64,000 bases of DNA. Source: Acidobacteriaceae bacterium. Its GTDB lineage: Bacteria > Acidobacteriota > Terriglobia > Terriglobales > Acidobacteriaceae. Under the pieces are notes generated by a model, which did not search any database, had not been told where the DNA came from, and saw only the letters and a list, made by a program, of their open reading frames with translations. Position numbers and translations under genes: made by a program. Within the stretch, counting starts at the first letter, position 1, and the number at the start of each line of letters is the position of its first letter. The DNA is taken from NCBI GenBank assembly GCA_030041515.1, contig JASHNS010000053.1, positions 1-64,000 on the forward strand, read 5' to 3'. Below are positions 55,039 to 58,646 of the stretch, piece by piece.

Positions 55039-58017
55039 ATGCCCGTTGTTCCGCCGCCGGGGAACGAGACGCCCGGCCCCTGGCCACCGCTGAAGGAGAC
55101 GCTTTCGCTGCCCCGCACCGACTTCGCCATGAAGGCGAATCTCCCCCAGAATGAGCCAAAGCGCCTCGAAGCCTGGCGCCAGACTGACCTCTACGCCCGC
55201 ATCCGCCAGGCCCGCCACGGCCGCCCCCGCTACGTCCTCCACGACGGCCCTCCCTACGCCAACGGACCCCTCCATCTCGGCCACGCCCTCAACAAGTGCC
55301 TCAAGGATTTCATCGTCAAGTCCAAAACCATGGCGGGCTTTGACGCCCCTTACGTCCCCGGCTTCGACTGCCATGGCCTTCCCATCGAAATCAAAGTCGA
55401 CGAGCAGCTCGACCGCAAAAAGCTCGACCTGCCCGCCGCCGAATTCCTCCGCCACTGCCGCGAGTACGCCCAGAAGTACGTCGACCTTCAGACCAGCCAA
55501 TTCGTCCGCCTCGGCGTCTTCGGCCGCTGGCAGTAGCCCTATTCCACCATGTCGCGCGACTACGAAGCGCGTACGCTCGAAACCTTTTACCGCTTCCTCG
55601 AAGGCGGCTTCGTCTATCGCGGCCTCAAGCCCGTCTACTGGTGCATCCACGACCGCACCGCGCTCGCCGACGCCGAAATCGAGTACGAGATGCACTCCAG
55701 CCCCAGCGTCTACGTCCGCTACGATCTCACCAGCGACGCTGCGGCCCTCCATCCTGCCCTCGCCGGCCGCCAGGTCGCGACCATCATCTGGACCACCACC
55801 CCCTGGACCCTCCCCGCCTCGCTCGCCGTCGCCTTCCATCCCCAGTTCGAGTACGTCGCCCTGCAGTCCGGTGACGCCCAGGACGCCCGTGTTTACATCG
55901 TCGCCGCCGCCCTGGAGCAATCCGTCCGCGAAAACTGCAAACTCGAATCCGCCGTCCCCGTGGCGAAGTTCCTCGGCGCGCGTCTCGAAGGCGCCACCTT
56001 CCGCCATCCCTTCCTCGACCGCCAGATCCTCGGCGTCCTCGCCGACTACGTCACCACCGAGCAGGGAACCGGCGCCGTCCACACCGCTCCCGCCCATGGC
56101 GCCGACGACTTCTACACCGGCGCGAAATATGGCCTCGATCAAACCTGCCGCGTCGACAACGAGGGCCGCATCCGACAGGGCCTGCCCGAATACGACGGCA
56201 AGACCGTCTTCCAGGCCAATCAGCCCATCATCGATCTGCTCGCCGCGCGCGGCGTGCTCCTCGGCCGCTCCGACATCTACCACAGCTATCCGCACTGCTG
56301 GCGCTGCCATAACCCCGTCATCTTCCGCGCCACGGAGCAGTGGTTCATCTCCACCGACACGCCCATGACGAACCCCGACGGCACGCCGACGACCTTCCGC
56401 CAGCGCGCCCTCGATGAGATCAAAAACAGCGTGAAATGGGATCCCGCGTGGGGCGAAGAGCGCATCGCCAACATGATCGCCACGCGCCCCGACTGGTGCA
56501 TCTCCCGCCAGCGCGTCTGGGGCGTGCCCATCGCCGTCTTCCTCTGCAAAGGCTGCCATGCGCCGCTCAACGACTGCGTCCTCAACGAGCGCATCGTCGA
56601 GCTGTTCGCGAAGCAGGGCGCCGAAGCGTGGCATACCGAGGCCGCCGATCGGCTCCTCCCGCACGGCGCGCACTGCGCCAAGTGCGGCGGGACAGAATTC
56701 CGCCGCGAGACCGACATCCTCGACGTCTGGTTCGACTCCGGCGCCAGTTGGTACGCCGTCCTCGAGCAGGAGCCCGGCCTCGCGCCGCCCGCCGACCTCT
56801 ACTTCGAGGGCGGCGATCAGTACCGCGGCTGGTTCCACACCTCGCTGCTCACCAGCGTCGGCGTGGGCGCCGAGCACGCCACGCCCTACAAAATGGTCGG
56901 CACCGCGGGATGGACATTGGACGAGCAGGGCCGCGCCATGTCGAAATCTCTCGGCAACGGCGTCGACCCCGTCGACATCGCCGACCGCCTCGGCGCCGAA
57001 ATCGTCCGCCTCTGGGTCGCCAGCGTCGATTTCCGCGAAGACGTCGTCTCCAGCGAACAGATCATGCAGCGCCTCGCGGAAAACTACCGCAAGCTGCGCA
57101 ACACCTTTCGGTTTCTGCTGGGAAATCTCGACGGCTTCTCGCCCGCGCGCGACGCCGTCGCCGACGCCGAGCTGCTTCCCCTCGATCGTTACATGCTCGC
57201 CCGCACCCGCGAGCTGGTCGAGAAGCTGGTCGGCGCCGACGGCCAATCCGGCTGGTACGGCGACTTCCAGTTCCACCGCGTCTTCCACGCCGTCAACGAA
57301 TTCTGCATCGTCGACCTCAGCTCGTTTTACCTCGACGTGCTCAAGGACCGCCTCTACACCTTCGCGCCCGCGAGCCGCGAGCGCCGCTCCGCGCAAACCG
57401 TCCTCTGGCGCATTGCCGACGCGCTCGTGCGCCTCGTCGCACCCATCCTCAGCTTCACGGCGGAAGAGGTCTGGCAGTGTCTGCCGAAAGTCGAAGGCCG
57501 CCCGGAGAGCGTGCATCTCGCCGAGTTTCCGAAGGCCGAAGATCTCGGCGCACCCCTCTCTGATATCGAGGAGTTCGAGTGGATGGTTTTGCTCCGCTCG
57601 CGGACGCGCGCCCTCCATCAATTGGAGACAGACAGAAAGGCCGGCAAGATCGGGAAGGCTCTTGAAGCTGGCGTCCGGATTGTCACCCGCACCAAAATTT
57701 TCACCAGAGCTGCCAGCAGATATCAAGACTCGCTCAAGGAATTATTTAATGTGAGCCAAGTGGAGGCCGCAGCAGAAAACTTGGAGATCCACCCCGATAG
57801 ATACGAGCAGGAATTTGAAAGTGGCCCAATTTCCGATGCTGCGTTCGATCAAGTGGTTGTGGTCTCGACCTTCCCCGCCCTCGGCACCAAATGTAACCGC
57901 TGCTGGAACTACTACCCAGACGACTCCCCGCAGCACGTCCGCCAGTTCGGCCCGTGGGAAAATGTCTGTGGCCGCTGCGCCGACGCCCTCAGCCAGATGG
58001 GATACAAAGACCGCTGA
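55039..58017 (+). CDS. ileS: Isoleucyl-tRNA synthetase, interrupted by an in-frame TAG at codon 166
   Basis: 993 codons from ATG 55039 (GGAG upstream). HIGH motif HLGH at 79-82; catalytic and editing regions (FDCHGLPIEIKVDE, TIIWTTTPWTLPAS, YGLDQTCRVDNEGR); KMSKS as AMSKSLGNGVDP; C-terminal zinc knuckle TKCNRCW...NVCGRCAD. At 55534-55536, in a conserved stretch (LGVFGRWQ*PYSTM), there is TAG with no frame change. Downstream an ATG at 55549 starts an 822-residue frame that holds the editing domain, KMSKS and zinc; upstream gives 165 residues with HIGH. Either the two halves assemble, TAG is read through, the gene is dead with another copy elsewhere, or the base is wrong. Charges tRNA-Ile. Confidence 0.9.
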
Positions 58018-58151: not shown

Positions 58152-58646
58152 GTGACCCGCGATCGCCGCCCCTGGCTCTTCCTCATTGCCGCCTGCGTCC
58201 TCGCGCTCGATCGCCTCACCAAAGCCTGGATCGTCGCCCACATCGAGATCGGCAACACCATCCGCGTCATCCCGCGCGTCTTCTGGCTCTCCCACGTGCA
58301 GAACCCCGGCGCGGCTTTCTCGCTCTTCATTGACTCGCCGCGGCCCACCCTCACCCACTGGCTGCTGGTCGCCTTTTCGCTGGCCGCCGCGCTGGTTGTG
58401 TTTCTCGTCCTGCTCTGGATCGGCCGCCGCTTCACCGCGACCACCCTCGCCCTGGCCCTGGTCCTCGGCGGCACCCTCGGCAACGTCTGGGACCGCATCC
58501 GCTTCGGGATGGTCACCGACTTCCTCGCCGTCCGCATCTACCACTACCACTGGCCCGACTTCAACGTCGCCGACTCGGCCATCGTCATCGGCGGCATCCT
58601 CCTCGTGCTGGACGCCCTCCGCGCCCCCCACCACGAAAAGAATTGA
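58152..58646 (+). CDS. lspA: Lipoprotein signal peptidase (signal peptidase II)
   Basis: 164 residues; GTG at 58152. Four membrane segments. Aspartyl-protease residues in GNVWDRIRFGMVTDF and FNVADSAI; NPGAAFSLF is the usual loop. Cleaves prolipoprotein signals after lipid modification at the inner membrane. ileS-lspA adjacency is common in bacteria. Confidence 0.95.
   Translation: MTRDRRPWLFLIAACVLALDRLTKAWIVAHIEIGNTIRVIPRVFWLSHVQNPGAAFSLFIDSPRPTLTHWLLVAFSLAAALVVFLVLLWIGRRFTATTLALALVLGGTLGNVWDRIRFGMVTDFLAVRIYHYHWPDFNVADSAIVIGGILLVLDALRAPHHEKN

Follow-up and report, generated by a model that had tools for sequence, protein, structure and literature searches.

Isoleucyl-tRNA synthetase (IleRS) is an essential enzyme, and an in-frame stop codon within the one gene found for it in a draft genome raises the question of whether and how that codon is crossed in the cell. 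Such a codon interrupts ileS in the window examined here, a stretch of 64,000 nucleotides from an Acidobacteriaceae bacterium that belongs to a contig (C87) of 65,567 bases. The site lies well inside the contig and not at its end.

An amber codon in an otherwise open ileS frame

The ileS frame extends from the ATG at 55039 to the TGA at 58015-58017 and comprises 992 codons, among which the TAG at codon 166 (55534-55536, forward strand) is the sole stop, as the initial annotation had reported. The features of the locus are collected in Table 1. The two parts of the frame match both the catalytic domain profile PF00133 (414 long) and the solved IleRS structure 8c9e in continuation: the 5′ part covers positions 2-128 of the profile (E 2.3e-38) and 4-149 of 8c9e (E 2.5e-49), and the 3′ part covers positions 135-411 and 159-914, respectively. 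The frame is intact to the C-terminus apart from the one codon, which had also been proposed. The suggested order of motifs was recovered as well, with HLGH, which we take to be the HIGH signature, upstream of the amber codon, and the sequences presumed to be the MSKS loop and the zinc knuckle, the latter with both of its Cys pairs, downstream. The 3′ part additionally carries the editing domain and the anticodon-binding domain. The loop reads AMSKS, the A being usual at that place (95 of 98 relatives). An in-frame ATG at 55549 is positioned 12 bases 3′ of the amber codon.

Table 1. Features of the ileS locus, in coordinates of the window.
Feature	Coordinates	Strand	Remarks
ileS 5′ part	55039..55536	+	165 codons; HIGH signature (HLGH); ends at in-frame TAG
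ileS codon 125	55411..55413	+	GAC (Asp); Gly in all 98 distinct relatives
In-frame amber codon	55534..55536	+	codon 166; variable position among relatives
ileS 3′ part	55549..58017	+	822 codons from a conserved Met; no Shine-Dalgarno sequence found
lspA (signal peptidase II)	58152..58646	+	PF01252, E 3.4e-39; intact neighbor 3′ of ileS, same strand

The stopped position among relatives

The position was compared in IleRS sequences of relatives, which are Acidobacteriaceae. Of 118 loci offered to the alignment, 9 were dropped owing to low identity or a short frame; addition of the sequence under study and removal of duplicates left 99 distinct sequences. Among the 98 distinct relatives the column of codon 166 accommodates 11 different residues (R 27, Q 17, K 13, D 12, N 12, E 5, T 4, S 3, A 3, H 1 and Y 1), and a stop occurs in the studied sequence only. 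The P and Y residues that follow directly are invariant. The initial annotation placed the TAG in a conserved stretch: the stretch is indeed conserved, whereas the column with the stop belongs to the variable positions within it. The residue encoded by the ATG at 55549 is Met in 95 of the 98 relatives. Nine of the 11 genus mates cover codon 166 and all nine have a sense codon there, namely GAT in four, CAG in two, and AAC, GCC and TCG in one each. A single C-to-T step separates CAG from TAG. A 21-base pattern that spans the stop was detected among 215 loci only in the two that represent the studied genome (L001 and L163). A shared ancestral stop is rejected on the basis of the sense codons in the genus mates and the restriction of the pattern to these loci.

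TAG is an ordinary stop codon in the genome

The assembled DNA gave 44 Rfam tRNA matches, all of which were typed by ARAGORN and none of which has the anticodon CUA. Thus, the suppressor tRNA that had been listed as one alternative is not among the tRNAs found. PylS was not detected in the assembly, from which its N-terminal domain is absent. The RF1 gene, prfA, is intact (534 bits), and a second release-factor match of 386 codons that fell below the cut-off is presumably RF2. The ends of 143 long coding-like open reading frames (ORFs), drawn from a sample of ~454 kb, consist of 66 TGA, 40 TAG and 37 TAA codons. TAG is an ordinary stop in this genome, as no CUA tRNA was found, RF1 is intact, PylS was not recovered, and 40 of the 143 ORFs terminate with it. 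Wholesale reassignment, already considered unlikely in the initial annotation, is rejected on the same grounds, as is partial reassignment.

An ordinary stop may nevertheless be leaky. If the amber codon is real and recent, a near-cognate tRNA could place Gln, Lys or Tyr at UAG often enough to provide sufficient full-length IleRS. The column tolerates each of these residues, with Q in 17, K in 13 and Y in one of the 98 distinct relatives. The amber codon is followed by C, and TAG-C may be a leaky context; however, this context is not special here, being present at 19 of the 40 TAG ORF ends and constituting the commonest TAG context in the sample. A survey of bacterial genes describes purifying selection on genes that contain in-frame stops, among them cases in which TAG and CAG occupy the same position (Belinky et al., 2021; PMC7918605). 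Against readthrough stand the intact RF1, the absence of any suppressor from the 44 tRNAs identified, and the RNA fold after the stop, which resembled that of shuffled sequence (z 0.17), so that a special RNA structure at this place is rejected. Moreover, a low rate of readthrough would be expected to starve the cells of an essential enzyme. Overall, readthrough gains no positive support and is regarded as a rather doubtful explanation.

No evident adaptation to the stop

A further means of crossing the codon would be the production of IleRS in two pieces of ~18 and ~92 kDa, with translation stopping at 55536 and restarting at the ATG at 55549, and the pieces then associating. E. coli IleRS that was split experimentally is reportedly active. 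The in-frame ATG 12 bases past the stop and the normal constraint on the 3′ part are also in keeping with this possibility. Nevertheless, when the 17 upstream bases, excluding the last three before the ATG, were paired with the anti-Shine-Dalgarno tail, the site at 55549 yielded -2.1 kcal/mol compared to a random median of -2.2 kcal/mol, which is not above background. By comparison, pairing reached -6.1 kcal/mol at the genuine start at 55039 and -7.4 kcal/mol at that at 58152. Pairing at the random level argues against a newly arisen ribosome-binding site upstream of the 3′ part, and this candidate is rejected. The ATG specifies the Met that is conserved in the family and hence was not created as a start codon. 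The break falls inside the catalytic domain profile PF00133, and the stop is present in none of the nine genus mates that cover the codon. Overall, nothing around the amber codon looks adapted to it. The genuine split enzyme entertained in the initial annotation gains no positive support from these features, and production in two pieces is judged quite improbable.

Constraint on both sides of the stop

The ileS gene was examined for signs of decay. In leave-one-out comparisons the sequence broke one of 141 otherwise invariant columns, at codon 125, where Asp replaces the Gly of all 98 relatives; the codon in nine genus mates is GGC or GGG. A C:G to T:A change could account for the GAC at this codon, as it could for the amber. 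Across the 99 sequences, the studied gene deviated once at columns that are ≥95% conserved (median 2) and four times at columns that are ≥90% conserved (median 7). Relative-rate counts, given with the studied gene first, were 32 versus 56, 18 versus 42, 44 versus 41, and 62 versus 58, and thus revealed no acceleration. The dN/dS values between this gene and that of L204 were 0.092 for the 5′ part and 0.146 for the 3′ part, compared to 0.150 and 0.168 between L204 and L205. Most pairwise values thus fell within the range of the relatives; those against L205 were higher (0.322 and 0.328) and were accompanied by lower dS. Private changes in the 5′ part numbered five in 265 sites, in line with the three to 10 in eight genus mates.

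Thus, the parts 5′ and 3′ of the stop have both remained constrained, in a test that is powerless if the stop is very recent. A decaying gene was not seen, codon 125 being the sole oddity. As judged from these sequence comparisons, neither part of ileS appears to have clearly decayed, a pattern with which a very recent real mutation would be compatible. The amber codon therefore looks either very young or not real, since clear decay is lacking and the ATG at 55549 is an old conserved Met without a Shine-Dalgarno sequence.

The assembly and the search for a second IleRS

The assembly comprises 4,765,937 bases in 123 contigs, and is 99.93% complete and 0.93% contaminated. A search of the assembly with the TIGR00392 profile identified one IleRS gene; the second ileS that had been raised as an alternative was not found. 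Seven other matches to the profile, all below the cut-off, derive from three other open frames, which from their rank and length we take to be ValRS, LeuRS and MetRS. Neither tRNA-Ile(GAT) nor tRNA-Ala(TGC) is among the 44 tRNAs found in the assembly. A 16S match also was absent, although the control for this search was weak, being positive in only nine of 14 genomes. In view of the two missing tRNAs and the lack of a 16S match, the assembly probably represents a metagenome-assembled genome (MAG). The tRNA complement includes two tRNA-Cys(GCA) genes (G000:C77:40034-40106 and G000:C89:7545-7616). That ileS is a very young pseudogene covered by a second IleRS gene in unassembled sequence is highly improbable: although the assembly is without some necessary items such as tRNA-Ile(GAT), it is almost complete and discloses a single IleRS, ileS shows no decay, and the only relatives in which another IleRS type was noticed, among the matches listed, are distant ones such as G221, with two ileS frames.

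In-frame stops elsewhere in the genome and in other drafts

The ~454 kb of the genome were screened for stops with a same-frame coding signal on both sides. The screen flagged 1006 of 1430 mock positions (70%), and frameshifts are outside its scope. Ten stops emerged. On inspection by eye, eight resembled ordinary gene-to-gene boundaries and one a spurious open frame, and ileS was the only single gene that is cut among the ten. No stop is present in rpoB or in the frames assigned to ValRS and LeuRS. An assembly full of nonsense errors was not seen in the ~454 kb at a screen sensitivity of ~70%.

The ileS genes of 319 genomes (G000-G318), some of which have partial genes, were surveyed. Among the matches listed, at least two other drafts possess a lone internal stop. 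G254, of the same phylum, has an ileS of a different type that is open except for a TAG at codon 14 (L216:370-411), where the related G221 has GAA. In G144, ileS is split over two contig ends (L217 and L218), and a TAA occupies a Gln position 61 bases from one of these ends. The ileS genes of G005 (L211) and G048 (L219) are in two reading frames, as if frameshifted. These four genomes are fragmented drafts, each with at least 140 contigs. The broken ileS genes in the four drafts fit a background of draft-genome errors, which they do not prove.

A wrong or minority base as the preferred explanation

The most probable reading, with a probability of roughly 0.6, is that the assembled consensus at 55534-55536 is an error or a minor-strain allele, and that the base misrepresents the living, growing cells. 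In the living population, codon 166 would then be a sense codon and ileS intact, the consensus having taken up a wrong base or one from a minority strain. The sense codon may well be CAG, which is used by two of the nine genus mates and is one C-to-T step away from TAG. This reading accounts best for the data because the gene is essential, single-copy and constrained, the stop is unshared and falls where substitutions are tolerated, a single transition away from CAG, and there is no compensation for it. The wrong base suggested in the initial annotation thus ranks first among the remaining explanations.

Certain observations count against an error. The amber codon is located mid-contig in a contig of 65.6 kb; the absence of any other single-gene in-frame stop in ~454 kb indicates that the assembly is not visibly rich in nonsense errors; and genes that carry in-frame stops while under purifying selection are reportedly widespread in bacteria (Belinky et al., 2021). 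The converse, that a natural amber codon is crossed to make the sole IleRS of a free-living acidobacterium, either in two pieces via reinitiation or by leaky readthrough at a tolerant position, is unlikely. Were it true, termination efficiency would set the level of a housekeeping enzyme. A real amber codon would be a natural example in which an essential synthetase survives a nonsense mutation, no suppressor tRNA having been found, and would allow the readthrough or reassembly needed for cell survival to be measured. If, instead, the base is wrong as favored here, caution is warranted: when an essential gene in a draft genome contains a lone stop, neither a pseudogene nor a new genetic device should be assumed before the reads are checked.

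Comparison with known systems

A literature search located no relevant paper on split IleRS, on premature stops or pseudogenes of ileS, or on errors that create in-frame stops in MAGs. The LeuRS of Aquifex aeolicus is a class I synthetase that is naturally encoded by two genes. The ileS locus resembles that system in that two open frames jointly cover one synthetase, but differs in that a single nonsense codon, present in one genome, separates the frames, the second frame lacks a ribosome-binding site, and the break falls in the catalytic domain profile. The locus also resembles the isolated nonsense bases in draft or MAG genomes, as in G254 and G144, being likewise a lone, unshared stop without supporting features. 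Unlike the stop of G144 near a contig end, the codon in question lies in the interior of a contig, and the assembly is nearly complete.

Belinky et al. (2021) describe bacterial genes that remain under purifying selection despite a single in-frame stop, and find that such stops persist only briefly. Even a real amber codon in ileS would be a case of the kind described there unless two-piece function were shown (PMC7918605). The gene shares with those in the survey the presence of one nonsense codon in an otherwise intact and constrained frame, and the worked example therein also sets TAG against CAG at one position. In contrast, the set in that survey was confined to stops in at least two genomes to remove sequencing errors, whereas the stop in ileS occurs in one genome only.
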